The notes beneath the pieces are model-generated. The model ran no database searches, was not told the DNA's origin, and was given only the letters and a program-made list of their open reading frames with translations. Of a stretch of DNA of 64,000 nt, positions 6,441-28,953 are shown in pieces. Within the stretch, counting starts at the first letter, position 1, and each line of letters starts with the position of its first letter. Position numbers and translations under genes: made by a program. The stretch covers positions 62,001 to 126,000 of the forward strand of contig CAIMUF010000074.1 in assembly GCA_903844635.1 (NCBI GenBank), read 5' to 3'. The DNA is from an uncultured Sulfuricurvum sp. GTDB taxonomy: Bacteria > Campylobacterota > Campylobacteria > Campylobacterales > Sulfurimonadaceae.

Positions 6441-6998
6441 ATGTTAATCGGTTACGCCCGTGTCTCTACGCAAGATCAAAACCTAATGTTGCAGACAGAA
6501 GCCCTCAATAATGCAGGGTGCTTAAAGATATTTGAAGATAAAATAAGTGGCACTCGAACAATCCGAGAGGGATTAAGTAAAGCCCTTGAGCAATTAAGAG
6601 AGGGTGATACGCTTGTAGTTTGGAAACTAGATCGTTTAGGTCGTAGCGTAAAAGACCTCATCACTCTTGTCAGTGAATTAAACAAGCAGGGGATTAACTT
6701 TAAGAGCCTCACGGACTCTATTGATACTTCAACGCCATCGGGACGCTTCTTCTTTCATGTCATGGCATCTTTAGCGGAAATGGAACGAGAGTTGATTATT
6801 GAGCGTACGAGAGCAGGGCTTGCCGTTGCTAAGAGCCTTGGGCGAACTGGTGGGCGTAAACGGTTGATGACTGATACTAAAATTGAATCAGCTAAAAAAC
6901 TATTAGAGGCAGGAACACCGCCCAAGGACGTTGCTAAAAGTCTAGGCATATCCGTGCCTACTCTGTACAGACACTTGCCGGCAACTGGTAATTCTTAA
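6441..6998 (+). CDS. Serine recombinase (resolvase/invertase family)
   Basis: 185 residues, the standard length of Tn3-type resolvases. Nucleophile Ser9 lies in GYARVSTQDQ, and the catalytic arginines are in the KLDRLGRSVKDL stretch. The C-terminal HTH is about 155-180 (PPKDVAKSLGISVPTLYRHL). An AAAAAGGAA ribosome-binding site precedes the ATG. No transposase is nearby, so it more likely resolves multimers of the excised element or inverts a segment than serves a transposon. Confidence 0.92.
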   Translation: MLIGYARVSTQDQNLMLQTEALNNAGCLKIFEDKISGTRTIREGLSKALEQLREGDTLVVWKLDRLGRSVKDLITLVSELNKQGINFKSLTDSIDTSTPSGRFFFHVMASLAEMERELIIERTRAGLAVAKSLGRTGGRKRLMTDTKIESAKKLLEAGTPPKDVAKSLGISVPTLYRHLPATGNS

Positions 6999-11126: not shown

Positions 11127-13031
11127 TTAAATTTTTGATAATTTTGGTAAAATAATAGTAAATTGAGCACCTTTTTTGGTGTTTTTTACGCTGATATCTC
11201 CTGAAAATCGTGTTACGATAAGATTTTTTGCGATGTAAAGACCCAGTCCTTTCCCGTTTTTATCTTCACTGGTAGAGATATAGGGCTCGAAAATTTTTTC
11301 TATAGGTGAAACTGTAATTCCTTCAGCATTGTCTTCAATATCTATAAAAATTATTTCTTTCTTTTTTTCGGCGTGGATAGTAATCATTGGGGCTATAACA
11401 TTTCGTCCTATTAATGCGTTTTGAGCATTCGACAAAAGATTTAAGATTACTTGAGAAAATTCTGATTTCGAACCAGGAATATTTACATCATTAAGATCAA
11501 AATTGCGCATGAGAATAATCCCATTATTTTTAAATGAATCACCAATGATAAACAACGCTTCTTCAATTGCTTGTGATAGATCGAATGTTTCATCGCTTTG
11601 ATGATTCGAAAAGAAATTTAAAAAAATATCAATTGTTTCAGACATATTTTTTATAATTAGCTCACTTTTTTTAGCTTCATCTAGCAAGGTTTTTTTGTCT
11701 ATATTAGGTTTAAAATAAAGGTCTGACTGCATTTTGACTAACGACATAGAAAGCCGATGAAGTGGCTGTCTCCATTGATGCGCGATATTACCTACCGTCT
11801 CTCCAGCTACAGCCAATCGAGCGTTGATCAGCATTAGTTTTTCGCTCTCTAAGGCTTTAATTTCAGATTCTGATGCTTTTAATTTTATGTATTTTAATTT
11901 ATCACCTAAGGCAAAAGAGAAAAAAATCATTTCGATGAGAGTGCCAGATCTTAGTAGCAGATCATTGATTATCTTACTTTCTAAAATGCCCGTCAATTCG
12001 AATATATAGACGATCATCAGGCCACCTGTCATCAACCAACCAATAATGATATAACGACTGCTAACATTACTTTTTTTGTATCCTACAAAGGCAAGTACTA
12101 AGATAAATGCGACCATTAACATACCAGCTAATGGAATAATGGGAAGAATCTTGCTGTATGTTTGAGGGATAATCATCAATATAATCAGCGGAAGATAAAT
12201 AGCTAAAATCAAACGGGTGTAAATACGATAAAGTTTAGGGCTATAGGTATCAAGTTCAAAAAATTTGCTTACAAAAAAGACACTAAAGAGGATGAATAAT
12301 GCCCCTGCTATGTTGAGTGCAACGGTAATATTCCACAATCCAAAAAATGGAGTATATTGATATGCAATACCGAAGAATGAAGCCTGCATCACAAACATAC
12401 TCGACATGGCTAAAAAATAGTAGATAAAACTTATCTCTTTGAGTGAAAAGAACAAGATGACATTATAAAAGGTAAAAAAGACAATAATAACCAGAAAAGC
12501 CATGATAAAAGATTCACGTTTTGGGTATATTGATTCCCAAAATGTAGAAGGATTATGAAGATGTAAATCGATTACCATTGCACCTGAATTTTTGAGTTTC
12601 AGTATAAGTATTTTGGTCTCATTAGCCTCAAAGTCGAGAGGAAAAAGATGGTATTTATTACGTAAAATACGCTGATCTATAGGACGAAGATCACCTGATA
12701 GATAGGTTTTTAGAAGTTTTCCCTTGGAATCAAATAGATAAAGATCTACAAAATCCATCGGGACAAAACCCAGTTCAAGCAATTGCTTTTGAGCTGAGTT
12801 TTGAGGATTGCTAATATTGATCTTGACCCAATATGGGCGGTTGTCATAACCAAAATTTTCTATCCCTTTGGTATTGGGAATAAATCTATTGGAGTGATAC
12901 ATTTCTTGTGCTGTGATGGAGGGATCATCTACTGCGGCAATATCACATAATGGGGTGATTTTTTGAGTGTTTTGAGTGATAGGAAAAGCATAAAGTGACA
13001 CTCCTAAGAGTAAAAATAAGAATAATTTCAT
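11127..13031 (-). CDS. 7TM-DISM sensor histidine kinase
   Basis: 634 residues. Order: signal peptide (1-16), periplasmic 7TMR-DISMED2 beta-sandwich (about 25-160, with WVKINISNP), seven transmembrane helices (about 180-390), a short coiled coil and a HisKA-like dimerisation helix with His418 in NIAHQWRQPLHRL. The ATPase domain has N box QVILNLLSNAQNAL, G1 IEDNAEGI and G2 GLGLYIAKNL. DISMED2 domains are proposed to bind carbohydrates or related ligands. The start overlaps the response-regulator stop (ATGA), so the two form one operon. It is the likely sensor for the TPS loci on the opposite strand. Confidence 0.93.
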   Translation of the reverse strand: MKLFLFLLLGVSLYAFPITQNTQKITPLCDIAAVDDPSITAQEMYHSNRFIPNTKGIENFGYDNRPYWVKINISNPQNSAQKQLLELGFVPMDFVDLYLFDSKGKLLKTYLSGDLRPIDQRILRNKYHLFPLDFEANETKILILKLKNSGAMVIDLHLHNPSTFWESIYPKRESFIMAFLVIIVFFTFYNVILFFSLKEISFIYYFLAMSSMFVMQASFFGIAYQYTPFFGLWNITVALNIAGALFILFSVFFVSKFFELDTYSPKLYRIYTRLILAIYLPLIILMIIPQTYSKILPIIPLAGMLMVAFILVLAFVGYKKSNVSSRYIIIGWLMTGGLMIVYIFELTGILESKIINDLLLRSGTLIEMIFFSFALGDKLKYIKLKASESEIKALESEKLMLINARLAVAGETVGNIAHQWRQPLHRLSMSLVKMQSDLYFKPNIDKKTLLDEAKKSELIIKNMSETIDIFLNFFSNHQSDETFDLSQAIEEALFIIGDSFKNNGIILMRNFDLNDVNIPGSKSEFSQVILNLLSNAQNALIGRNVIAPMITIHAEKKKEIIFIDIEDNAEGITVSPIEKIFEPYISTSEDKNGKGLGLYIAKNLIVTRFSGDISVKNTKKGAQFTIILPKLSKI

Positions 13032-13714
13032 GGGATAATCATTTTATAGCCAAACCCGCTGTGCGATTGTATGGCAGTTTTTCCTATTTTTTGTCGGAGT
13101 TTATTGATAAGACCTTTAAGTGCAGAATCGCTTTTAGGATCACCGAAATAGAGATGATTTTCGATCACATCTTTGGGGACTATTTGGTTTGTATGGGCGA
13201 TTAGGAGTTCTACGAGTTTACACTCTAATGCGGTCAGCGTAAACGAGATATTGTCATAGAGACCTTTTCGCTCATGAAGATTGAGCTCGGAACCGCTTTC
13301 TAAAAATATTTTTAGAGGATATTTGAGTGTATATGCATTGACAATTTTTTCCATGACACTTAAAAAATCGTTGAATCCTATTGGTTTAATGAGGTAATCT
13401 TCTAATTTTAACGCAACAGCTTTATGCAGATACTCAAGTGTGTTATGCGCTGTGATGATGATAATTTTTACTTGGTCGTTACTCTTGCGTATTTCTTGAA
13501 TCATCTCCAACCCATCGATCTTAGGCATCATGATATCGACGAACATAATATCTGGATTTTTCTCATAAAAAAGGTTGAGTCCTTTTTCCCCATCGTAAGC
13601 AATATAGACATCATTAAACAATGGATCGATTGTATTTTTTAAATATTGGGCTGTTTGTATGTCATCTTCGACGATGAGAACATTCATATTACGAAAAAGG
13701 GTAAATTTGTTCAA
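13028..13714 (-). CDS. Response regulator, OmpR-type winged-helix
   Basis: 228 residues. Receiver domain about 10-128 with E16/D17 acidic pocket, phosphoacceptor Asp60 (MFVDIMMPKIDG), Thr88 and Lys110 (DYLIKPIG). A winged-helix output domain (about 150-228) ends SHSGFGYKMIIP. It is coupled to the kinase gene by a 4-base overlap. Its upstream region carries a GAAACTTTTTT half-site on its own strand (13758-13748), and the divergent tpsB1 promoter carries two tandem copies of a near-identical motif, so autoregulation and control of the TPS genes are plausible. OmpR-family proteins usually bind such direct repeats about one helical turn apart. Confidence 0.93.
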   Translation of the reverse strand: MNKFTLFRNMNVLIVEDDIQTAQYLKNTIDPLFNDVYIAYDGEKGLNLFYEKNPDIMFVDIMMPKIDGLEMIQEIRKSNDQVKIIIITAHNTLEYLHKAVALKLEDYLIKPIGFNDFLSVMEKIVNAYTLKYPLKIFLESGSELNLHERKGLYDNISFTLTALECKLVELLIAHTNQIVPKDVIENHLYFGDPKSDSALKGLINKLRQKIGKTAIQSHSGFGYKMIIP

Positions 13715-13747
13715 TAGATTAGCCTGTTGTTTTTGTAATTATTGTCT

Positions 13748-13829
13748 AAAAAAGTTTCTTTTTTGTCACTAGCTAAATTATTGTACTCTGGAAAAACTTT
13801 TTAGGAACTTTTTTTTAGTATCTTATACT
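13748..13829. promoter_or_regulatory. Divergent regulatory region of response regulator and tpsB1
   Basis: On the plus strand, AAACTTTTT (13794-13802) and GGAACTTTTTT (13804-13814) form a direct repeat about 10-11 bp apart, ending 7-8 bases before a TATACT -10 box (13824-13829). That places the pair at the -35 position, as for class II activators. On the minus strand GAAACTTTTTT (13758-13748) points toward the response-regulator gene. The same tandem motif recurs at 22994-23014. Confidence 0.6.
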
Positions 13830-13854
13830 CGTTATTTAAACAAGAAGCGGTTGT

Positions 13855-15582
13855 ATGAGAGAAAAACTTTTATTGAGTCTGTTGTTAATCGGAAATATTC
13901 TTTCTGCACAAACATTGCCAGAGCCTGATGCGCTGCGACGCGATATAGAGAAAAATTTTGAAAAATTGCAGTCAGACAGTTTAAAAGATATATCACCCGA
14001 TGACAAAATAAAAATTCCGGTTGAAACACTACAAAAGAGTGATGAAAATATTTCCAATAAAGCATCATCTGATATAGAGGTAGTATTAAAATCTTTTTTA
14101 TTAAAGGGAAATACCATCGTCACGGATGAAGAAATTCATGAGCGATTGGAGCCATTGATCAATAAAAAAATATCGTTCAAAAAACTAAAAGAGGTCGTAT
14201 CGATCATACAAAGACTCTATGTTGACAAAGGGTATATAGCAAAGGTCTATTTTCCAGAACAAAAAATAAGCGATGGAAGGGTGCAGGTTGCCATAATCGA
14301 AGCAAAGCGAGGAAATGTCACTAAAAATTCATCGTCTACATCACAAATGTCTGAATTAAAGCTGCAAGAATATGTAGATGCCAAACTCAGAGATGGGGAT
14401 CTATTAAACACAATAGAGTTGTATCGGGCGATCACTATACTCAATGAACTGGATGGATTGAGGGCTTCGTCATCTCTGGTCAAAGGGATAGATGATAACA
14501 GTATTGATATTTCAATAAAAGCAGATCTGAAAGAAAAATATACTTTTTTTACAAGCGTTGACAACTACGGTACAAAATATCTGGGTGTGGTTCAAAATTT
14601 CATCTCATTTGGAATTAACGATTTGCTCAACTATGGATTACACGACAAATTGGCTTTATCAACGATGATTTCCAGTGGAAATAAAATGGGAAGTCTCTAT
14701 TATCGGTTTCCAGTCGGTACGAATGGTTTGAAAGCAGGATTTAATATCTCAAGGCTGACGTATTCATTGGGGAAAGATTTTGAACCTTTGGATATAGGGG
14801 GAAGTTCTTTTTCGAAAGGGATACATTTGAATTACCCTATTATCAATGCGAATGGATCTCGTTTAAATATAGAGGTTGAATATGATGAAATACGTTCACA
14901 ATCTAATACAAAAGAGGTTGAGACAAGCAATAAAACGGTAAGACACGCCAAAACGTCACTCAATTTTTCGAATAAAGATCCATTCTTATCAGGTGCAATA
15001 AATCAGCTGCATCTGATGTATGTGCGTGGCGACCTGAATATCAACAATAATGCTGAAAAACTTGCTGATTTTATATCAGCCAACACGGATGGGGCTTTTT
15101 CTAAGCTGGAATTAGGATACTTAAGAGAGCAAAAAATTGATGATCAGTTTGAGCTTTCTTTTTATTTGAATACTCAAAAAGCGTTTAATAATCTCAATAG
15201 CGGGGAAAAAATCGCTCTGGGCGGTCCACACAGTATCCGAGCTTATCCCAATGGTGAGATCAGCGGTGATGATGGGTATTTTTACAACGTTGATTTGAAG
15301 TATCGTATAACAAACAATTTTAAGGGCTCTATTTTTTATGATTATGGTCGAATTAAAAGAGATCATCAAGTTTGGTCAAATGAGGCGAGCGTTCAAGCGC
15401 AGAGAATTTCTTTGGATGCTGCAGGGGCAGGTTTACTTTATGATGACGCGTATGGATTTGGAGCAAAAATAGAATTTGCAACAAAAATCAATGCTAATGA
15501 AGCGCAAGATGCAAATGGCAATGACAGTGATGGAGAAAATAATAAATATCGGGTCTGGCTCTCTGCCAGATACAATTTTTAG
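13855..15582 (+). CDS. TPS outer-membrane transporter TpsB1 (FhaC/ShlB family)
   Basis: 575 residues. Signal peptide 1-19 (ends ILSAQ), helical linker 20-72, then a POTRA_2 domain (about 75-152: FLLKGNTIVTDEE ... YVDKGYIAKVYFPEQ) and a 16-strand barrel. A conserved barrel motif is seen at GGPHSIRAYPNGEISGDDGY (about 458-477), the lid-lock VRGY-type region, here IRAY. Terminal aromatic residue: RYNF. It exports the TpsA1 protein whose gene follows 8 bases later. Expression probably depends on the tandem motif and -10 box just upstream. Confidence 0.93.
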   Translation: MREKLLLSLLLIGNILSAQTLPEPDALRRDIEKNFEKLQSDSLKDISPDDKIKIPVETLQKSDENISNKASSDIEVVLKSFLLKGNTIVTDEEIHERLEPLINKKISFKKLKEVVSIIQRLYVDKGYIAKVYFPEQKISDGRVQVAIIEAKRGNVTKNSSSTSQMSELKLQEYVDAKLRDGDLLNTIELYRAITILNELDGLRASSSLVKGIDDNSIDISIKADLKEKYTFFTSVDNYGTKYLGVVQNFISFGINDLLNYGLHDKLALSTMISSGNKMGSLYYRFPVGTNGLKAGFNISRLTYSLGKDFEPLDIGGSSFSKGIHLNYPIINANGSRLNIEVEYDEIRSQSNTKEVETSNKTVRHAKTSLNFSNKDPFLSGAINQLHLMYVRGDLNINNNAEKLADFISANTDGAFSKLELGYLREQKIDDQFELSFYLNTQKAFNNLNSGEKIALGGPHSIRAYPNGEISGDDGYFYNVDLKYRITNNFKGSIFYDYGRIKRDHQVWSNEASVQAQRISLDAAGAGLLYDDAYGFGAKIEFATKINANEAQDANGNDSDGENNKYRVWLSARYNF

Positions 15583-18500: not shown

Positions 18501-20258
18501 TTGAGCCGAACGGCGGGAGAAAATGTTGGAAGCTACACGATTGACCCATCCGCATTGGCAAACGGAAACTATATTATTACCACGAATAATGGAACACTCA
18601 CGATTGATAAAGCACCTTTGCTTATTAAAGCAGACGATAAGCTTAAAACATATGGTCAAGAAAATCCTCTGCTGACGTATGGAATGATTGGTTTTGTCAA
18701 TGGCGAGACACTTCAAACCTCTGGTATTACTGGTATCGCTCATGTGTATACTTCTGCCACAATGACATCACCTGTTGGATCTATGCCGATTGAATTGGCT
18801 TTAGGTACACTGGATGCTTCGAATTATCAAATAAGTATGATAAATGGTACACTTGATATTAAGTCAAATGGTGCTGTAGATAACACATTGAAAGTTACTG
18901 AAACGTTGTTGTCAGCGAAAAAAGATGATGTAAAAATTACAAATACCATCAGCACTATAATCGAAAATACTACAGAGATTATTTTTGATACAGCAGTAGA
19001 TGAAGCGATTAATAACTTGATCGCTCAGCTAGAAACAGAGACTCTTATTGCAGATAACACACAACAAAGCATTGAAATATTAAGCGATAAAAGTAAAGTT
19101 GTCGTGCAAAGCAGTAGCGGATTTATAGACAATACTACTCCAATCAACACGCCATCTGATGCATCGGTGCATGCAGAATCCAAGGTTAATCTGGCGAATA
19201 ATCCGGATGAACTGCCATTGATAAACCTACCATACGAAAAGCCTTCAAAAAATGTAGAAAATATTGGTAAAAATCTTTCAACGGATAATTTTCAAAACAC
19301 GATTTTACAGTTTGAACAAGGTTTTATAAATGGCGGTATGAGTGCTGAAGAGAGTCAAATGGTAACAAATATGGCAATAAAACTGGCTATTACCAATCCA
19401 AACGGCTCAACTATAGCGCTTAAAGAGCTTAGCAATGCAGTTAAAGTGGATAACGCCTCTGTGGCTTCAGCCCTCTCAAACGGAAACCCGCCAAATGGGG
19501 ACAGGGCGTTTGACCAAGTATTTCAAGCTCTGCTATCAAAAGGTGTCTCACCTCGAAATGCGCTTTCTCAAGCAACTACTCTCGCACGCTCTATCCCCAA
19601 AGAGATACCCTTATCAGAACATATACGCTCTATGTCGACGGATCAAGTTAAAATAGTTCTTAACTTGCTGGCAAAAGGATACACCCAAAATGAAGCGTTG
19701 AAAATCGCAACGAGTTATACCTTTCCAAAAGAGAGTGTACTGTCCAATATCACCAGCGGAGAGATGCTAACTAATTCCCCTATGCTGGATAAATATCTGA
19801 CGAAACATTCACTGGAAGAAGCACTAATACTCTCAAAGAAAAAAGAACAAGAGGGTCTGCGCTATCAAACCATTGATAAGTCCAATGGACTCATATCCTT
19901 TAGCGAATTATCCAAAGCGGGGAAGATCCCGAACAATAAGCTGTTCGATAAGATCCTTGCTAACAAGCTTAAATCTCATCCGTTTGAAGATGCATATCGC
20001 ATTGCTTTGGATGAATATCGATCGTTGTTCAAGAACAATACCTCGCCGCTAGAAAAGATGGCGCAGGGGACTATCGGAAATAGCAGCAGCAGTGCCGATA
20101 AAATTTGGTGGATGGAGTTTATCAAAAACATCATGAATGGTAAAAATCACGAGGAGGCAACGATGTCAGCAAACACAGCTAAGAATGTTTTTGAAAAGAA
20201 AAAATCGATAGCAATAAAAATCGATACAAAAATCTACAAAAGGGGAAAATATGAATAA
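15591..20258 (+). CDS. TPS exoprotein TpsA1 with MBG domains and C-terminal helical repeats
   Basis: 1555 residues, start ATG 15591 with AGGAA upstream. Signal region about 1-32; TPS secretion domain about 38-250 with the NxNG and NPNG-type motifs (GNLNANGQVFLINPNGVFF). A beta-helix stalk follows to about 830. Then MBG/YDG-type beta repeats (about 840-1095, with ITADSASKTYG and IKADDKLKTYG). The C-terminal 300 residues differ: they are helical with about six short repeats of the form G-x-(S/T)-x-x-E-A-x-x-x-A (for example KGVSPRNAL, KGYTQNEAL, HSLEEAL). It is secreted through TpsB1 and probably acts as an adhesin or surface fibre. Its stop overlaps the channel-fusion gene by 8 bases. Confidence 0.92.
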   Translation: MFDCSTSKMNRLTSHGFVFVLVLSEFVYGSTADNALPINGVIKQGAITINSNGTTMNINQATQKGIIEWGTFNIGKSATVNFNQPNSASSTLNRVISSNPSEIYGNLNANGQVFLINPNGVFFSKTSKVDVGSLIVSTMNISDENYLNSNYIFQREGALGKIINEGELSAKEKGYIALMAPEVINDGVIQAKLGNIAIGSGEQIILSFTDNDLVNIEVSETNIAALIENKNLIITEEGKVFISAKSRDEVLGSMVKNSGIIEADSLISKNGEIYLESTNTIEISGILKTHDGKVFVGNKTTENTLIKSTAVLEGEFIETSAQNLTVEEGVTIQGKTWLLDPTDITIVSTGIDGLSGSNISGSTIDTTLNNGTSIILEATNNISINDNISKTSGADSTLTFKAGNNISLSSGKSITSTSNKLNLVLWANSDANGGGVTLNSGSSILTNGGDIWMGGGSGSTTWNGLSVGDSYAKGTLAAATSGIDMLGVSNSPISLNSNGGDIRVWGRGPNSGGFGIRAQYTTLDSGAGGSIWMEGDGYYSSGSNGHGIILDHSSLRGGSKGLNIIGKASINNTGQWSFPMFMNQSNVYTTDNGTLAIDLNAPQANGNNFYFFHDTSGGGDTSLIGSSQTGDITITATGTSTAKLYFPNIQTSGNFLVSSSSSGAQSIEQMYSTTKVVVGGESSFSTGVNSTISLTNTDNDFLGAISVNGGGNLSIADVNTLELGSINVSGKINISTQTGDVTLNNTMITSSTANDAIVINAGKNSSAGTSTGGNIIINGSLTVSTGAGGRATFYTGSILGSTALADLIGLGSGNFRYNSDESASNYTAALSGGMYGIYREQPILHIAPSNSSSIYGDSVSLTGGNYLISGYANGDYLNTIGLSGLASFSTTALTGNNAGAYNIAYTSGLSNVLGYAIVDASNLIGEYTINQRPITITADSASKTYGNSDPILSYAITSGNLMGSDSLSGVLSRTAGENVGSYTIDPSALANGNYIITTNNGTLTIDKAPLLIKADDKLKTYGQENPLLTYGMIGFVNGETLQTSGITGIAHVYTSATMTSPVGSMPIELALGTLDASNYQISMINGTLDIKSNGAVDNTLKVTETLLSAKKDDVKITNTISTIIENTTEIIFDTAVDEAINNLIAQLETETLIADNTQQSIEILSDKSKVVVQSSSGFIDNTTPINTPSDASVHAESKVNLANNPDELPLINLPYEKPSKNVENIGKNLSTDNFQNTILQFEQGFINGGMSAEESQMVTNMAIKLAITNPNGSTIALKELSNAVKVDNASVASALSNGNPPNGDRAFDQVFQALLSKGVSPRNALSQATTLARSIPKEIPLSEHIRSMSTDQVKIVLNLLAKGYTQNEALKIATSYTFPKESVLSNITSGEMLTNSPMLDKYLTKHSLEEALILSKKKEQEGLRYQTIDKSNGLISFSELSKAGKIPNNKLFDKILANKLKSHPFEDAYRIALDEYRSLFKNNTSPLEKMAQGTIGNSSSSADKIWWMEFIKNIMNGKNHEEATMSANTAKNVFEKKKSIAIKIDTKIYKRGKYE

Positions 20259-22965
20259 GGTTAAACAGTTTATCGATCACAGTTCAAAAACCGAAAAGTT
20301 TTTGATGATCATTGTGGCGATTATCGTCATTTCGACAGTACTTTCGCTGATCGTCAAAGTAATTATGGATACCCAAAGCAAAGATACCTATAAAATCGCA
20401 GTTGTGATTCCAAGTAACGCCCAAGAAGCAACATCGATCCTTCAAGGGGCGCAGAGCTATGTAGAATCGATCAACAAAGATAAAACCTCACACTATCGAT
20501 ATGAAGTTGTCATTTTAAAAGATAACGATAGTGAGTTGGTTTCAAAAGTAAAATCCCTCTCAGAAGACAGCGATTACGTCGGCGTCATAGGATTTTACAA
20601 TAATGCTCAAGTGCTAAAATCGGTTCAAAATATTAATGTGCCTATTTATAGCCTCTCTTCAGAAAATGCATTACCTTCTAAAAATGTTCATCTATACACT
20701 TTCGATGAGACAAAAAAATCGCAATTTATTGCAAACTATATGCGAAACGTCAAAAAAGAGCATTTCACCTATTTTGCTCACGATAATTCTTTGAAATGTC
20801 AACAAGAACAAAAAGAGTTTGAGACGCTCTATAAGCGATTTGAGATACCGCTCAAAGGTTCTGTAAGTACACAACAGGGGATACAGGGATATTTTGATAA
20901 AGTCGATTTTGGCGCTGTTTACATCTGTGGAGATGAAAACAGCAGTGTGGAGATTTTAAAAAGCATCAAGTCAAGTAAAACAGAACTTACGACGTATTCA
21001 AGCGAAGTCTTAGCGCTCAACAGTGCTAAAAGCCGTTTGGCTGATCCTTCAAACAGCCTTGATGGAATATTTGTACCTACTCCGTTGTTGTTCGATACGT
21101 CCAGTAAAATGGCCCAAAACTTTTTAAACAACTACGTCAAACTCTACAATACGCAGCCAGATTGGTTAGGGGCAATTTCTTATGATATGGCACAAATGGC
21201 TTTTGAAAAAGCGTTAAAAAAAGCAACATCACAACATGGTGTGATTCGAGATTATGAATACAATAAAAATCTCTTTACGCTTCCTCTCAAAATGGGGCAG
21301 TACAACGGTGACCAGATCGTATCGGCACCCATACAGCTCCAAGAAATCGCCAATAAACATTCGATAAGCAATTATATTCAGGCGATGAGAGATGGGAGAG
21401 TGTTGTATGTCAATGATAGCTTTATGTACAAAACCAATGTCGTCTATACCGGTATCAAAATAAATTCTATTAGCAAAATCAAGCAAGACGAGGAAACTGC
21501 ACAAATCGATTTTTCGATTTGGTTCCGTTATCAGGGTAATTTTGAGCCAAGTGATATTATGTTTCTCAACTCGGATGTGGTTTTGCAAAAGCCTGAAGAG
21601 AAGATCGATATGGAAAATGATCATTATGTTCGCTTTAGAACCAAAGGGGTCTTTAAGCTCAATTTTTCGAAAAACCAAAAGTCTTACGGGGTAAATACGG
21701 TCAATATCATCTACAGACACAAAAAGCTAAACCACAATAACCTCTTGTTTGTAAGTGATTTGCTTGGTATGCCCAATAACAAAGAGATGATTACACAGAT
21801 AAACGATCGAAAAGTAATCGATACCGCTGCTGTATCCGAAGCAAGAGATTTTTCGATTTCACAATCATTGTTGAGGGATTACAGTGAGGGTAAACCACAA
21901 TATATAGGATTTCAAGGGGAAGACGCACTCTTCTCGGTCGTTAATATGGAACTTAGGCTCGAATCGTCCATGATCACTGCAAACGATTTTATCCCGAAAA
22001 AATATTTCATTTATTTGATGATTTTTGGTTTTGTTGGTCTCATAGGAGCGAGACTTATGGATTCAAAAAGACTTGGTAGATATTGGTACATCCAGTCTTA
22101 CGTATTGAGGCTCGTATTTTTGCCAATGTTGCTGATAGCGCTTGGAAATATGATTCTTGATTGGGCGTATGTGAGTCTTGATCATCTGATTACCTCTTAT
22201 TTGGTTGTAGTGTATGAGGCTCTTTGGTGGTTGTTGCCTGCATATTTGATCGATTCGGCAATTAGACGTTTCGTTTGGTATAAAATAGAAGAGAAGGCGG
22301 GTAAAAAGATACCTGCTATTATTGTCATCTTGGTTACTTTCGTCATCTATGCACTTTCAATTTCAGGGATTATTGCATTTGTATTTCATGAAGAGCTTAC
22401 GAGCATGCTTGCTGCATCCGGTGTTATTGCGATGGTGGTAGGTTTTGCGATACAAGCCAACATTGCCAATATTTTTTCGGGTTTAGTCTTGAACATGGAC
22501 AGACCGTTTAAAGTAGGTGAGATCGTAGAACTGGATGATATTTGCGGAGAAGTGCTGGATATCAGCTGGAGAACGACTAAGATTAAAAATTGGGATGGGA
22601 TTATCTACACGATACCCAACGATCAACTCTCCAATACGCAGATGAAAAATATCAGTCGTACAGAGGTTTTTTTATCTGAAAAATACATCAATCTAAATCC
22701 CGATATAGATCCAATATTAGCAACTGAATTAATCAATGAAGCGTTGATGCAATGCGAAACTATCGTCGAAAAAGATCACGAATATTATGGTGCAGAGGCA
22801 CTTTATAGTGGTCATGTGATCGAAGGGGAGCAATGGGTAGGGCGATATTTGGTTTGGATGAGTACCAAAGATTATTATGATTATGAGATAGCAGAAAACG
22901 AGCTGTGGTCAAAAATGTATGAAGTATTTAAGCGGGAAAATTTGGAGTTGTATAAACCCGAATAA
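20251..22965 (+). CDS. Periplasmic-binding-protein / MscS channel fusion
   Basis: 904 residues. One N-terminal membrane anchor (about 17-38). Then a type I periplasmic binding fold (about 47-370; YKIAVVIPSNAQ ... DYVGVIGFYNN ... LDGIFVPTPL), as in branched-chain amino-acid receptors. A beta-rich domain (about 395-580; FSIWFRYQGNFEPSDIMFLN) follows. The membrane part has about five helices (588-750), ending with the MscS pore helix (SGVIAMVVGFAIQANIANIFSGL) and the MscS beta domain (RPFKVGEIVELDDICGEV). The layout suggests a ligand-gated rather than purely tension-gated channel. It overlaps tpsA1 by 8 bases, so the two are co-translated. Substrate and role unknown. Confidence 0.9.
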   Translation: MNKVKQFIDHSSKTEKFLMIIVAIIVISTVLSLIVKVIMDTQSKDTYKIAVVIPSNAQEATSILQGAQSYVESINKDKTSHYRYEVVILKDNDSELVSKVKSLSEDSDYVGVIGFYNNAQVLKSVQNINVPIYSLSSENALPSKNVHLYTFDETKKSQFIANYMRNVKKEHFTYFAHDNSLKCQQEQKEFETLYKRFEIPLKGSVSTQQGIQGYFDKVDFGAVYICGDENSSVEILKSIKSSKTELTTYSSEVLALNSAKSRLADPSNSLDGIFVPTPLLFDTSSKMAQNFLNNYVKLYNTQPDWLGAISYDMAQMAFEKALKKATSQHGVIRDYEYNKNLFTLPLKMGQYNGDQIVSAPIQLQEIANKHSISNYIQAMRDGRVLYVNDSFMYKTNVVYTGIKINSISKIKQDEETAQIDFSIWFRYQGNFEPSDIMFLNSDVVLQKPEEKIDMENDHYVRFRTKGVFKLNFSKNQKSYGVNTVNIIYRHKKLNHNNLLFVSDLLGMPNNKEMITQINDRKVIDTAAVSEARDFSISQSLLRDYSEGKPQYIGFQGEDALFSVVNMELRLESSMITANDFIPKKYFIYLMIFGFVGLIGARLMDSKRLGRYWYIQSYVLRLVFLPMLLIALGNMILDWAYVSLDHLITSYLVVVYEALWWLLPAYLIDSAIRRFVWYKIEEKAGKKIPAIIVILVTFVIYALSISGIIAFVFHEELTSMLAASGVIAMVVGFAIQANIANIFSGLVLNMDRPFKVGEIVELDDICGEVLDISWRTTKIKNWDGIIYTIPNDQLSNTQMKNISRTEVFLSEKYINLNPDIDPILATELINEALMQCETIVEKDHEYYGAEALYSGHVIEGEQWVGRYLVWMSTKDYYDYEIAENELWSKMYEVFKRENLELYKPE

Positions 22966-23057: not shown

Positions 23058-26000
23058 ATGAAATACACTCCCGATTTTTGCTCACGCTTTCGGATTCTAA
23101 AAGGAGGGAAGATCTCCCTCGTTGTTTCAGCTCTTGTAGCCGGAAGTACAATGACCTTTGCATCCCCTACAGGCGGTCAAGTCACTAGCGGTAGCGCAGC
23201 TATCGCTCAAAACGGCTCCATAACGACCATAAACCAATCCTCCAATAAAGCCTCCATTAACTGGAACAGCTTCAGCATTGCTCCATCTGAGACAGTAAAC
23301 TTCGTTCAGCCCTCATCTTCTTCGGTTACTCTTAACCGTGTGATAGGAACAACCCAGTCTCTTATTCAAGGCGCTATGAACGCCAACGGTCAAGTATTCC
23401 TCCTCAATCCAAATGGTGTACTTTTCGCCAACGGTTCGCAGATCAATGTTGGTGGATTAGTCGCTTCCACACTCAACATCACCGATGAGAACTTCCAATC
23501 AGGTAACTACCTCTTTGAAGGTAACAGCCAAAACTCTATTATCAATATGGGAACCATTACCGCTAACAATGGCTACGTAGCTATGATGGGTAAAACGGTA
23601 CAAAATGAGGGAACCATCGTAGCAACGATGGGGAATGTCCAAATGGCATCGGGAGAGAAGATCAGTCTGAACCTAAACGGTAACTCTCTGGTAAAACTCA
23701 CAATTGACCAAGGGACCCTAAACGCTTTAGTAGAAAATAAAGGTCTCATCCAAGCCGACGGCGGTCAAGTCTATCTCACGACCCAAGCACTCAATACTAT
23801 TCTCGATGGTATGGTGAATAATACGGGAGTTATCGAAGCGCAAAGCCTCAACAACGTCGATGGTAAAGTTGTTCTTTACGCACACGGCGGAACCACGACT
23901 GTCAGCGGAACACTTGATGCGACAGGCGGGTTTATCGAAACATCTGGGAACAAACTTGGTGTTGCAGAGGGTACAGTTATCAAAGCTAAAAAATGGTTGA
24001 TTGACCCTGTGGATATTGTAATTGATCCAGCAGGTGGAGCTGATCTTGGCGGGTCATCTATTAGAGGAGCAACAATTAACACAGCACTAAATGCCGGCAC
24101 CAGTGTTACCCTTAGTGCTACAAATGACATTACACTCTATGATGTCATTGATAAATCATCTGGGGGTGATGCAACTTTGGAGTTGATTGCAGGTCATGAC
24201 ATCGTATTTGGATTTACTCCAGCAAATCCTGATGCGCAGACGCTAGCCACTTATGGAAAAATACTCCAAACGGGAAATCCTACTGGGAATCTTCTCGTAA
24301 ATTTATTTGCTAGAAATCGCTTTACGATGTCGGATGTGAGTAATGAGATTAATGTTAAGGGTGATGTTGCAATCAGCGCTGCTCAAGGATTTTACCTTAG
24401 AAATATTACTTCAAGTGAGGGATCAATTAACACAGAAATGTCACATACTCCAATAGTATCCTCGAATGGAAGTACAGTAGACGGAATACTATTTGGAAAA
24501 AATGGTGTATCTCTTGTTGCGAGTGCAGACACTGACAATGCTTTGACCATTGCGGCAGGGTCATCTATCGATGCAACCGATGCAATTGTATGGCTTCAGG
24601 GTATTGCTACGACTGGCCACAAGGCTTTAACCATCGAGGGTAACAGTGAAGTGCCTACGAATATAGGATTACATTCTTCTGAGGTTTTTCTCAGCGGGTA
24701 TACACCTGGTATTGCTGCGGGTATCGAATTGGGTACAGTGAATGTAGGTAATTCTAATTCAGCTATTTATGTAGAAGCAGGCGGACATGCTGCGAATGGT
24801 GATAGTATCGTTTTCCAACCAAATAGCACTCAACATTTTCAAGCATCATCGATGTCTATCAGCTCAAATAAGGACATGTACATCAATAGTTCATTGTTGA
24901 CTAGTGGTGAAGAACTGGTTCTTAGTGATATTACCAAGTTCACAACACTTGTCCCCAATTCAACGCTTGATATTGGAAATGAGAATGGTGGACAAAATAC
25001 TTTACATATTGGAAACACCATCGATTTAAGCACGGGAAGCCATTCCAAGTTAACCTTTTATGGATCTAATACTACGGATGTAGTGGTGGGTGATAGTGCC
25101 GGCGGAGCTATTTTACTCCAAGGTACTATGGATAAGCCTATCAGTATTTTTAAACTGCAAGGAGGTAATATTGTTTTTGGAGAGACTTCAACTCCTTCTG
25201 CGACCACCACTCTTACCCTAAATAATGTGGATGCGGAGATACGGGGTGACTATACTGGAATGATGATGATTGGTGCCAGTAACGATATTAAGATTTTAAA
25301 CTCCATTTTATATAGCGGTGCTGCCTTAATGGCTGCTACTAATGACTCCATCACAGTTGATGGATCAATTCTAAGTGTAAATAATAGCGACTTTGGTCTT
25401 ATCGCCCTTGCATCAAACATGGATGACAATGGTGGAGCGATTGTGGTTAACAACTCTACCATTAAATCGACTTCAGATGTTGGCTTCATTGCTATGAGTG
25501 GTGGCTCTGCATTTAATTTTGCGGATTTCTCGACTGGTTTTGCAAAAGGGATTGATGCAGCTGGCTACACCAACGGTGTTACGATTAACAACTCGACCAT
25601 CGGAGACAGCACAAAAAATACATTTATCAACATCCAAGGTGAAAGTGCAAGAGTGGGTCATGATGTAGCAGGGAATTCTGAATACTATTTGGCAACGGAC
25701 CTAGACTTGACATCCAACGTTGCTAATGGTGTTTTAATCAGCGGGGCTTCAGCTTTGTATTCAGGGACAGCTGATTTGTCTATCTCAGGGAAAATGGCAG
25801 CTCAAACGGATGCAGGATCACGGGTCTATGGCGCAGGTGTTTTTATCATGGGAAATACCAATAAAACAACGCTTAACTCAACAACAGGAAACATCACCAT
25901 CACAGGAGATGCCACATCGGTTACGGGACATACGAACGCAAGCGCGTGGTTTAAAGGAGTTGATTTACAAAACGCTTCTCTCCTCTCAACATCCGGAAAT

Positions 26001-27266
26001 ATATTCCTTGATGGTAAAACTTCCGCTCAAGGACAGATCTATGTAGGAACAGAGGGTGTTGACCTCGATGGAGTAACTATTACCACAGGGGGAAATCTAA
26101 GTATCAATGCCATATCAGGAGGTGGAAGCAGTGCCTTTAGAACACTCACGCAGTGGGGAAATAATTTTATTACCGCCAATAGTTTAGACCTCACTACATC
26201 TAATTCATGGGCAAATAATGATAAGTCTTCTGTGGATACAATGAATGTATTTGGACATAACGGATGGTTCGATAATACGAACGACGTATGGAGACTCGGG
26301 GATTATTTGTATGTCGAAAGTAGCGCAAATGGAGCTGGAGTCAATATTGAATCAAAACTTGTTGTGGGTGGACGTACGATACTCAATGTATCCTCTGTCT
26401 ATGGTGATACATATCTTGAGAATGCAGCAAATGAAATTCATGATCTTCGCGTAATGGATACAAGATTTTTAAGCTTGGTTACAACCCAAGCATTGGATGT
26501 TTTGAGTCTTTCAAGCAGAGGTGATGTGTATTTACAATCAGGAAGTGACATTAATATCAATGGTGCTGTTTCTATCGGTGCTAACTCGGCCGCCTTCTTT
26601 ATAGCAGACTCTGCACATGGCGGAAAGTTTACCGTAGCAGATGGTGTATCGAACATACAGTTGGGTGAGGGTTCAAAATACTACATTTATTCAAGCAGCC
26701 CAAGTGTTACACAATTAGGAAGCTATGCACCTGACTTTAGCGTGTATGAAAAAAGTTATGCTAACTACAGTAATCCAATGCTAAGTAACGATGGAAGTGG
26801 AGTAGTTTATTTTGGAGCAGCAGAAGTGACACCTGAGCCACAACCAGAGCCGACACCTGAACCACAACCAGAGCCAGAGCCAACACCCCATCACCATACA
26901 CCTATCGAGGATATCGTGACCACCATTGTCAATCAAAGTGTTATTGTGCCTCAAAACATCACGCCACCGTTGTCACCACGTGTAGAGCAACAGTCACTTC
27001 AAATGCAAACAGCATTGAATTCTTTACTTCCGACACAAAATAGTGATGATTTCTCTCTCGTCAGCACAACGGATGGAAATGGGTATCTACAATTATTAAG
27101 CATGAATGACATCAAAAAATCACTTCCGAGTGGTAGCGAGATTCGTGTACCACTGGGACATGATAGCGTCGTAGAACTCATAAATGGAGGGGTTAATCTC
27201 CCAGATGGTGTGAGCCAAGAATTCTATGTCGTAGATAACAACAATAAAAAATCCAAAAAGAACTAA
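23058..27266 (+). CDS. TPS exoprotein TpsA2 with Pro-Glu-rich linker
   Basis: 1402 residues. A long basic signal peptide (about 1-35, MKYTPDFCSRFRILKGGKIS..., ending MTFAS) resembles the extended signal peptides of large autotransported proteins. TPS domain about 36-250 with MNANGQVFLLNPNGVLFANG. A repetitive beta-helix runs to about 1255, followed by a proline/glutamate linker (EPQPEPTPEPQPEPEP, about 1258-1276), three histidines, and a compact terminal domain of about 120 residues. No MBG domain and no cysteine anchor are visible. tpsB2 follows after 10 bases. Likely a secreted fibre or adhesin distinct from TpsA1. Confidence 0.92.
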   Translation: MKYTPDFCSRFRILKGGKISLVVSALVAGSTMTFASPTGGQVTSGSAAIAQNGSITTINQSSNKASINWNSFSIAPSETVNFVQPSSSSVTLNRVIGTTQSLIQGAMNANGQVFLLNPNGVLFANGSQINVGGLVASTLNITDENFQSGNYLFEGNSQNSIINMGTITANNGYVAMMGKTVQNEGTIVATMGNVQMASGEKISLNLNGNSLVKLTIDQGTLNALVENKGLIQADGGQVYLTTQALNTILDGMVNNTGVIEAQSLNNVDGKVVLYAHGGTTTVSGTLDATGGFIETSGNKLGVAEGTVIKAKKWLIDPVDIVIDPAGGADLGGSSIRGATINTALNAGTSVTLSATNDITLYDVIDKSSGGDATLELIAGHDIVFGFTPANPDAQTLATYGKILQTGNPTGNLLVNLFARNRFTMSDVSNEINVKGDVAISAAQGFYLRNITSSEGSINTEMSHTPIVSSNGSTVDGILFGKNGVSLVASADTDNALTIAAGSSIDATDAIVWLQGIATTGHKALTIEGNSEVPTNIGLHSSEVFLSGYTPGIAAGIELGTVNVGNSNSAIYVEAGGHAANGDSIVFQPNSTQHFQASSMSISSNKDMYINSSLLTSGEELVLSDITKFTTLVPNSTLDIGNENGGQNTLHIGNTIDLSTGSHSKLTFYGSNTTDVVVGDSAGGAILLQGTMDKPISIFKLQGGNIVFGETSTPSATTTLTLNNVDAEIRGDYTGMMMIGASNDIKILNSILYSGAALMAATNDSITVDGSILSVNNSDFGLIALASNMDDNGGAIVVNNSTIKSTSDVGFIAMSGGSAFNFADFSTGFAKGIDAAGYTNGVTINNSTIGDSTKNTFINIQGESARVGHDVAGNSEYYLATDLDLTSNVANGVLISGASALYSGTADLSISGKMAAQTDAGSRVYGAGVFIMGNTNKTTLNSTTGNITITGDATSVTGHTNASAWFKGVDLQNASLLSTSGNIFLDGKTSAQGQIYVGTEGVDLDGVTITTGGNLSINAISGGGSSAFRTLTQWGNNFITANSLDLTTSNSWANNDKSSVDTMNVFGHNGWFDNTNDVWRLGDYLYVESSANGAGVNIESKLVVGGRTILNVSSVYGDTYLENAANEIHDLRVMDTRFLSLVTTQALDVLSLSSRGDVYLQSGSDININGAVSIGANSAAFFIADSAHGGKFTVADGVSNIQLGEGSKYYIYSSSPSVTQLGSYAPDFSVYEKSYANYSNPMLSNDGSGVVYFGAAEVTPEPQPEPTPEPQPEPEPTPHHHTPIEDIVTTIVNQSVIVPQNITPPLSPRVEQQSLQMQTALNSLLPTQNSDDFSLVSTTDGNGYLQLLSMNDIKKSLPSGSEIRVPLGHDSVVELINGGVNLPDGVSQEFYVVDNNNKKSKKN

Positions 27267-27276
27267 GGGATAACCT

Positions 27277-28953
27277 ATGAAAAAACTATTAACCCTATCC
27301 CTCCTTACTTCAGTTGCCTTGATGGCAGCTGCACCAACGACCGGAGACATCCTCCGTCAAGTAGAACCAGTACAAATGCCAGCGCTTGAAAAAGCTCTCC
27401 CTTCAGTAGGAACAGGGGAGTACAAAGCACCAATTTCTGCCAAAGACGATGTAGTGACATTTGTTAAATCATTTCGATTTAGCGGTAATACAGCATTTAG
27501 TTCCGAGGTGCTCTCGGCATTGCTAAAACCCTACGAGAACAAAGAAGTGGGAATCAATGGTCTAAAAGAGATTGCTTCCGTCATCACTAAATTCTACCGT
27601 GACCACGGCTACTTCGTAGCCCGTGCGTATATCCCTGCTCAAAGTATGGAGAACGGTATCATCGAGATTGCTATTATCGAAGGAACTTACGGCGCGTTTG
27701 ATGTGAAAAATAGCTCGTATGTTGATACTATAGAAGTCCAAGGATTTATGGATCACCTCAAAGGAGGAGCTCTGGTCTCTACGATGAGCTTAGAGCGCCA
27801 AATGCTCCTCATCAATGACCTCTCAGGTGCACAAGTCACCAATGCCGAAGTGTATCCAGGACAAGCAGTAGGAACCAGTGACTTTCGTATCACCGTGTCA
27901 CCAACTCAAAAATATACAGGCTACGCAATAGCAGATAATTATGGTTCACGCTATACCGGTGAAAACCGTCTAAACGTTATGGGAACAATCAACAGCGTAA
28001 GCGGCATCGGCGATACCCTAAGCCTTAGTGGTATGATCTCTAATACTCGTGATCTTAAAAATGTTCGTTTAGCTTACGATCGTCCACTTGGATACAACGG
28101 TCTTAAAGGAGGAGTAAGTGCAAGTATTACTGACTATACTATCTCAGAGATCAAAAACTATGAAGGGTCTGGACGAACAGACAGCTATAACGCCTATGTC
28201 TCTTACCCATACCTTAAAACACGCAGTCAAACCATCAGTACCGATTTAAGCTACGATCATAAAAGTATGAAAGATTCAAACGGACTTCCAGGATTGGTCG
28301 ATGAAAGCCGTAAAAAACTGGATGCGATTACCCTTCGTCTCAATGATAAACAAAACACCTCACTCCTAAACCTTCCAGGAAGTCTTTATGCCTCAGTAGG
28401 GTTCACAGGCGGACATCTTGGACTGGATAACCAAGTAGCCTATACGAATGATGCAGCGATCAATGCACAAGGTAACTACGCAAAAGCAAACGTGAGTCTT
28501 AATCATACTCAGGTCATTGCTGATTCACTAAACCTGCAATCCATGATTAAAGGACAAAAAAGTTTCGGTAAAAACCTTGATTCGGCCGAAGACCTCTCAG
28601 TCGGAGGATCTAATGGCGTTCGAGCCTATGAAGACTCAGAACTTAGCGGTGACCAAGGTTATGCACTTTCACTAGATATGGTATATGCCCTTCCAAAAAT
28701 CAATAGTATCAATCATAATACAAGTATATTCTTTGATCATGCAAAAATATGGAAAAACACCAGCATCTTTAACACTGAAGACAATGACCGTGTACTTAAC
28801 GCTGTTGGTGTCGGCTATGCAATGAACTACAAAAGCTTCGATCTCAAAGCAACCTTCGCACATGGCTTCGGAGGTGAATCAACCCCAACCACAGAGGCTG
28901 AAATCTCTACAAGTACGAATAAGTTCCTTGTTCAGGGGATGTATCGATTCTAA
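27277..28953 (+). CDS. TPS outer-membrane transporter TpsB2 (FhaC/ShlB family)
   Basis: 558 residues. Signal peptide about 1-18 (ending LMAAA), POTRA_2 domain about 60-138 (FRFSGNTAFSSEVL ... YRDHGYFVARAYIPAQ), then the 16-strand barrel with GGSNGVRAYEDSELSGDQGY, the VRAY/VRGY lid-lock region, and terminal MYRF. It is partner of TpsA2. Gene order here is A-B, opposite to the B-A order of the first pair, which argues for two independent acquisitions rather than a tandem duplication. Confidence 0.93.
   Translation: MKKLLTLSLLTSVALMAAAPTTGDILRQVEPVQMPALEKALPSVGTGEYKAPISAKDDVVTFVKSFRFSGNTAFSSEVLSALLKPYENKEVGINGLKEIASVITKFYRDHGYFVARAYIPAQSMENGIIEIAIIEGTYGAFDVKNSSYVDTIEVQGFMDHLKGGALVSTMSLERQMLLINDLSGAQVTNAEVYPGQAVGTSDFRITVSPTQKYTGYAIADNYGSRYTGENRLNVMGTINSVSGIGDTLSLSGMISNTRDLKNVRLAYDRPLGYNGLKGGVSASITDYTISEIKNYEGSGRTDSYNAYVSYPYLKTRSQTISTDLSYDHKSMKDSNGLPGLVDESRKKLDAITLRLNDKQNTSLLNLPGSLYASVGFTGGHLGLDNQVAYTNDAAINAQGNYAKANVSLNHTQVIADSLNLQSMIKGQKSFGKNLDSAEDLSVGGSNGVRAYEDSELSGDQGYALSLDMVYALPKINSINHNTSIFFDHAKIWKNTSIFNTEDNDRVLNAVGVGYAMNYKSFDLKATFAHGFGGESTPTTEAEISTSTNKFLVQGMYRF

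Follow-up and report, generated by a model that had tools for sequence, protein, structure and literature searches.

Why does a gene that joins a periplasmic-binding domain to an MscS-type channel overlap the end of a gene for a TPS exoprotein? The window, a stretch of 64,000 nucleotides from an uncultured Sulfuricurvum sp. (contig CAIMUF010000074.1), holds this arrangement at 20251-22965 (+), where a 904-residue open reading frame, here called FUS, begins with an ATG preceded by an AAGGGG-type ribosome-binding site and shares 8 bases (20251-20258) with tpsA1, the overlap that the original prediction had reported (Table 1). That prediction had also described one chain composed of an anchor helix, a type I periplasmic-binding (PBP-I) fold, a beta-rich domain, about five membrane helices and an MscS pore, and the open reading frame, Pfam and AF2 agree with it: the whole-chain model, built on a 47-row alignment, runs from the anchor helix through the PBP-I fold, a beta domain and five helices (residues 585-605, 610-642, 645-683, 689-711 and 716-750) to the MscS cytosolic domains. 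The established topology of MscS channels would place the PBP and beta domains in the periplasm and the MscS beta-domain in the cytoplasm. Because colinear full-length homologues are found in many genomes, this architecture is not an assembly artefact.

Table 1 Features of the FUS cassette in the window
Feature	Position in window	Strand	Evidence
tpsB1, outer-membrane TPS transporter of the cassette	13855-15582	+	ShlB 4.5e-22; POTRA_2 2.2e-14 (Pfam)
tpsA1, partner TPS exoprotein, 1555 aa	15591-20258	+	TPS domain 42-283, E 2.6e-35; MBG_2 repeats
tpsA1 helical-repeat tail, aa 1241-1555	19311-20255	+	repeat HMM match aa 1306-1329, 14.8 bits
Best copy of the ~30-aa helical repeat in tpsA1, AFDQVFQALLSKGVSPRNALSQAT	19506-19577	+	hmmsearch
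FUS, PBP-I/Cys-loop extracellular domain/MscS chimera, 904 aa	20251-22965	+	ORF; Pfam; AF2 pLDDT 82.1, pTM 0.67; full-length homologues
FUS N-terminal membrane anchor helix, residues 13-41	20287-20373	+	AF2 secondary structure; hydrophobic sequence
FUS type I periplasmic-binding domain, residues 44-365	20380-21345	+	Peripla_BP_6 in 46/47; 4gnr profile; LivJ Foldseek
FUS Cys-loop receptor (pLGIC) extracellular domain, residues 366-586	21346-22008	+	AF2, Foldseek, VIA, hhalign
FUS five membrane helices including MscS TM1-TM3, pore helix 716-750	22003-22500	+	AF2; phmmer
FUS MscS beta-domain, residues 738-803	22462-22659	+	Pfam PF00924, E 1.4e-19
FUS C-terminal cytosolic alpha/beta domain, residues 807-904	22669-22962	+	AF2; MS_channel_3rd in 10/47 members

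Peripla_BP_6 matched FUS alone at residues 58-327 below the Pfam cut-off (E 2.6e-6, 27.8 bits against 31.7) and was detected in 46 of 47 homologues, with a best E of 1.6e-42; a profile comparison of the domain with the LivJ-type chain 4gnr gave E 6.6e-36. In the C-terminal part, MS_channel_2nd scored 70.4 bits against a cut-off of 20.2, phmmer matched E. coli MscS (2vv5) at 9.4e-17, and the MscS beta-domain was found by Pfam in 47/47 homologues. Since the full model additionally matches LivJ (1.1e-13) and MscS/YnaI (6.8e-14) in Foldseek, the PBP-I and MscS domains of FUS are real. The pore is intact: the hydrophobic seal is kept in all 47 members at positions 728 (M/L/F) and 732 (L/M/F), G731 of the pore helix is invariant, and the pore helix, seal positions and beta-domain rank among the most conserved parts of FUS. 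FUS scores 59.7 bits against the curated cut-off of 321 for the E. coli-type MscS subfamily NF007662, and cNMP_binding, the domain by which a bCNG channel would be recognized, had no match listed for FUS or 46 homologues.

The beta-rich domain, which the original prediction had located by its FSIWFRYQG motif and left unnamed, was identified by structure comparison. Residues 366-586, which contain that motif and YVNDxFMYKTN, were folded alone (AF2, pLDDT 82.8) and resembled acetylcholine-binding protein (AChBP; Foldseek E 5.9e-10), GABA-A receptors (VIA Z 15.6) and the bacterial channel ELIC5 (VIA Z 15.1, 2.6 Å over 157 residues). A Foldseek search with the full FUS model had among the matches listed MscS and PBP-I chains only, these occupying the list. 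One relative supplied a sequence link: at locus L057, the gene two downstream of the channel is a pLGIC homologue (Neur_chan_LBD 1.4e-4; GABA-A pi 1e-9, also ELIC, by sequence), the ligand-binding domain of which aligned with the FUS middle-domain profile at E 2.9e-8, prob 95 (hhalign). Residues 366-586 are thus a Cys-loop-receptor (pLGIC) extracellular domain, and because of this identity FUS is a natural receptor/MscS chimera. Sequence signatures of the receptor family are missing: Neur_chan_LBD had no Pfam match in 47 FUS members, and in the loop, as placed by eye, the Cys/Pro-loop signature is not kept (Y479 in 46/47, G480 in 42/47, no conserved Pro). The four-helix pLGIC pore is not present in FUS, the C-terminal part being MscS. 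When the domain profile was compared with PDB sequences, the sole match, to Mce1F at E 0.93, was discarded as chance. The Cys-loop domain is the best conserved periplasmic part of FUS (mean 2.84 over residues 366-510, against 2.24 for the PBP domain), with a nearly invariant YVNDRFM stretch. Receptor domains of this type are five-fold and MscS channels normally seven-fold, a combination at odds in FUS.

A scan of 84,980 species genomes with two peptide patterns found at least 107 FUS relatives, a lower bound, in Alpha-, Beta- and Gammaproteobacteria, Magnetococcales and Desulfamplus. The fusion occurs in 1 of 151 genomes of the window's own family (E<=1e-30), and in a phylum sample the other genomes' matches to FUS, among those listed, span essentially the MscS part. 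Azospirillum chromids carry full-length homologues (29.7% identity over 95%), and nine of the 72,556 plasmid records searched hold full-length FUS; the closest plasmid match that is not a fusion is a cNMP-domain MscS. Viral contigs yielded no FUS relatives with either the single sequence or the alignment as query, and PADLOC assigned no defence family. A Rhizobium match (H10), considered as a shortened FUS relative, was rejected as a cNMP-domain MscS without the Cys-loop domain (hhalign prob 0.2); a Rhizobium cNMP-domain MscS gene (L036:4298-5815) adjoins HlyD and ABC permease genes, another MscS beside export genes. One Magnetococcales locus with a full copy has a second, weaker channel-like match (94 bits; L109:553-1164, -). 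Many FUS hosts (L037-L116) come from lineages in which magnetotaxis is known (Magnetospirillum, Magnetococcales, Desulfamplus, Magnetospira), with possible sampling bias.

We surveyed 84 channel loci (80 fetched, 3 from plasmids and the window), and at 77 of them the channel gene is accompanied by a giant adhesin-like exoprotein or by genes for its secretion. A T1SS set, defined as at least two of ABC, HlyD and TolC, is present at 47; TPS genes occur at 7, an exoprotein bearing the helical repeat described below adjoins the channel at 16, a giant adhesin-like open reading frame does so at 2, and at 5 a partial T1SS is cut off by the contig end. The other 7 are uninformative, being cut by the contig (L037, L054, L089, L106 and L060, the last of which stops 1.2 kb downstream, at the place where the T1SS of the closely related L058 lies) or masked (L069 and L093, whose apparent giant open reading frames were masked N stretches and were removed from the counts). 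Exoprotein or secretion genes were found at 0 of 20 control MscS loci of the window's phylum (~20 kb each); the corresponding Fisher p of 7e-16 is optimistic, as the loci are related. Often the gene directly upstream of the channel is the exoprotein gene itself, the two being separated by roughly -32 to 80 bases. Cadherin, LamG, FG-GAP, nidogen or MBG/YDG domains are present in these exoproteins, which makes adhesin-like a fair name. Among the 72,556 plasmid records, the T1SS ABC subfamily (query from L053, E<=1e-40) marks nine, identical to the nine with full-length FUS. The channel tree requires a minimum of two switches between TPS and T1SS, one of them at an Acetobacteraceae set nested in a T1SS clade, and the window's FUS groups on a long branch with the beta/gamma TPS set.

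The predicted link to surface-protein secretion is therefore borne out by the 77/84 loci against 0/20 controls, whereas its restriction to TPS is not, 47/84 being in T1SS operons. Taken literally, the fusion does occur mostly away from TPS genes, an outcome that the original prediction had named as contrary to it, yet the association follows the exoprotein. We regard it as very probable, with strong support from genomics, that channel and exoprotein are functionally coupled; inheritance in one operon is no proof that the two touch. Other genes recur at some loci: four TPS-type loci (L057, at 13416-14432, L038, L040 and L047) have a separate pLGIC homologue close to the channel, accompanied in L057 by a DUF4337 gene, and Azospirillum loci continue after the channel (L034:14379-22754) with genes for IcmF-related, DUF697, ABC and membrane-scaffold-like proteins.

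A second feature unites the exoproteins. A motif of the kind AFDKSLSAALAKGVSxxxAV, seen by eye, is shared by TPS exoproteins at their C-ends and by T1SS adhesins at their N-ends. An HMM of the ~30-aa helical repeat, seeded from TPS tails only and then iterated, detected two or more copies in 35 of 843 open reading frames and in 0 of 1245 block-shuffled proteins. Its sensitivity is inflated because the iteration used the test set; before iteration it already matched T1SS adhesin N-ends. In complete proteins, the repeat lies at fraction 0.80-0.96 of six TPS exoproteins (the window's included, with 1 copy) and at 0.03-0.24 of nine T1SS-type adhesins, a set that includes L049, L052, L062 and L064, without a complete T1SS in the DNA fetched, and leaves out L070 (0.08-0.49) and L044 (a 545-aa open reading frame, 0.32-0.56). 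TPS secretes from N- to C-terminus and T1SS exports the C-end first; the repeat is therefore at the last-leaving end in both. All seven TPS loci with the channel have the repeat, the window's tpsA1 tail with a single clear copy, as do 18 of 47 T1SS loci, a count lowered in part because the adhesin lies outside the fetched DNA. Fifteen comparison TPS loci that lack the channel, nine of them from the window's genus, have neither the repeat nor a channel relative.

These 15 ordinary loci indicate that giant-protein export does not require the channel, and so weigh against reading FUS as a safety valve of the envelope, in which a tension- or crowding-gated MscS would relieve osmotic, ionic or crowding stress during giant-protein export with the head serving solely to hold it in place where secretion occurs. 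The intact pore and seal would suit such a valve, and association with both secretion pathways fits general export stress, whereas a Cys-loop domain as the most conserved periplasmic part is unexpected in a passive anchor; altogether we think this reading improbable. The C-terminal prodomain of FhaB is kept in the periplasm (PMC8263021), and LapA-type adhesins have an N-terminal retention module that keeps the N-end there (PMC6890996); by analogy, the repeat end of FUS-linked exoproteins may be retained in the periplasm. Pfam detected no LapA-type retention module in two T1SS-type adhesin N-ends, which together with the repeat common to last-exported ends would agree with a head that serves mainly as the periplasmic dock of the exoprotein, ion flux being minor or vestigial. 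The conservation of pore helix, seal and beta-domain would be surprising in a dead pore, and we hold this possibility to be very slight.

In the window itself, tpsB1, tpsA1 and the channel stand beside tpsA2-tpsB2 (23058-28953), the resident TPS of the genus, which is found at 70-85% identity in several relatives. As tpsB1 matches the resident-TPS loci of the genus at only ~30% identity, the three genes are an extra cassette, separate from the resident TPS (a distinction that the original prediction had missed) and probably acquired. The tpsA1 tail and the channel co-occur in the same single genome, that of the window, among the 151 of the family; a TPS transporter is present in 11 of 41 genus genomes, the window's included. 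On the other side of the cassette, at 11127-13714 (-) and 6441-6998 (+), are a 7TMR-DISM histidine kinase and a response regulator, divergent from tpsB1, and close by a resolvase; a similar kinase and regulator pair adjoins TPS in L146. Another recurrent TPS neighbour was seen on Rhodobacterales plasmids (L157, L159 and L161), where caspase-family genes come immediately after TPS exoprotein genes, and Ser/Thr kinase genes, in many cases also OmpA genes, are close by.

What, then, could the head of FUS recognize? The original prediction had called the channel ligand-gated. We mapped onto the family, through an HMM alignment, the LIVBP residues that we take to hold an amino acid (S79, T102, Y150, Y202 and E226), and among the 47 members these anchors lack conservation (S 6/47, T 6/47, Y 5/47, E 6/47). 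A conserved amino-acid ligand is therefore disfavoured and other ligands are not: no conserved amino-acid pocket was found to back the term, FUS may have a different pocket, and the PBP domain could bind a small molecule. FUS might be a small-molecule receptor channel. Binding of a solute present near surfaces to its PBP-I and Cys-loop domains would then open the pore, and the operon would merely co-express a chemosensor with an adhesin that it never touches. The closest non-fusion plasmid match of FUS is indeed a ligand-type relative, pLGIC homologues distinct from FUS occur close to the channel at the four loci noted above, and PBP-I/Cys-loop ligand-binding-domain fusions are known in bacteria, with small-solute sensing proposed for them (PMC549065). 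The unconserved LIVBP anchors speak against it, and it leaves unexplained why unrelated exoproteins have a common repeat at the last-exported end that is missing without the channel; we find this reading doubtful.

The reading that we put forward, at about even odds, is that FUS serves a single giant exoprotein as its dedicated inner-membrane receptor-channel, reading in the periplasm the end that is exported last. Its periplasmic head, a PBP-I domain upon a Cys-loop-type extracellular domain, would read the exoprotein end, probably by direct contact; that end, the C-terminal tail of a TPS exoprotein or the N-terminal segment of a T1SS-type one, is the last to leave the cell and may stay periplasmic. 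The state of that end (waiting, pulled, released or cleaved) would be relayed by the Cys-loop domain to the MscS pore; by opening or closing, the pore would report to the cytoplasm on the deployment or engagement of the surface protein. Our analysis establishes the domains and folds of FUS, its colocation with exoproteins of both types, the repeat that these share together with its position, and the joint occurrence of tail and channel. Counting against the proposed reading are the five-fold receptor domain on a normally seven-fold channel, the detection of the repeat in only 18 of 47 T1SS loci, the single clear copy in the window's own tail and the chance that the PBP domain binds a small molecule. 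For FUS, we infer retention of the repeat end in the periplasm, physical contact, binding and gating, the direction of gating, the ion or solute that flows and the ensuing response. A mechanical form of this reading, in which the exoprotein is a tether with its repeat end bound to the FUS head and outside pulling or engagement gates the pore, seems unlikely to us; if true, bacteria would have a tether-gated channel that includes a Cys-loop-type receptor domain and can work with either secretion pathway.

How bacteria sense the binding of a surface adhesin is a long-standing question, and if FUS reads the adhesin's periplasmic end, laboratory Azospirillum or Magnetospirillum would offer a genetically tractable one-operon test of adhesin-to-ion-channel signalling. 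The chimera also shows that the head of a Cys-loop receptor can be combined with the pore of a different superfamily, which bears on the evolution of receptor and pore modules and on whether a seven-fold channel tolerates five-fold receptor domains. An MscS channel coupled to a Cys-loop domain, a PBP or an adhesin was not reported in the open-access literature searched; within that literature, what is new is the PBP-I/Cys-loop head joined to an MscS pore and its dedication to giant exoproteins of two secretion systems, and the coupled channel-exoprotein system may be categorically new. The parts are already known: PBP-I on a Cys-loop domain with a pLGIC pore since 2004, and a receptor-fused MscS pore in bCNG.

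With the MscS superfamily (E. coli MscS, YnaI), FUS shares the pore helix, beta-domain and C-terminal domain, and to these it adds a 580-residue N-terminal part with the periplasmic receptor head and extra membrane helices. The bCNG channels, known to fuse a cyclic-nucleotide receptor domain to an MscS pore, resemble it in having such a fusion, whereas their sensor is C-terminal and cytosolic, without a Cys-loop domain (hhalign prob 0.2), and the FUS head is N-terminal and periplasmic. Prokaryotic Cys-loop receptors (ART-LGIC/pLGIC) with a fused PBP-I domain are reported from Alphaproteobacteria, including Magnetospirillum (Tasneem et al. 2004, PMC549065); these ion channels have the same periplasmic domain order as FUS, PBP-I then Cys-loop, with a four-TM pLGIC pore where FUS has an MscS pore. 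Mechanosensitive channels have 0 occurrences in that paper, and its passages on these receptors do not mention exoproteins. The Lap system (LapA, LapD, LapG; PMC6890996) is similar to our reading of FUS in that a giant T1SS adhesin retains its N-end in the periplasm, into which a domain of an inner-membrane partner also extends; LapD acts through c-di-GMP and protease sequestration, whereas the partner here is a channel and TPS exoproteins are used as well. In the FhaB/FhaC TPS system (PMC8263021), the C-terminal end of the exoprotein likewise stays periplasmic, and no dedicated inner-membrane channel is described for it, whereas the tail linked to FUS is a helical repeat shared with T1SS-type adhesins.
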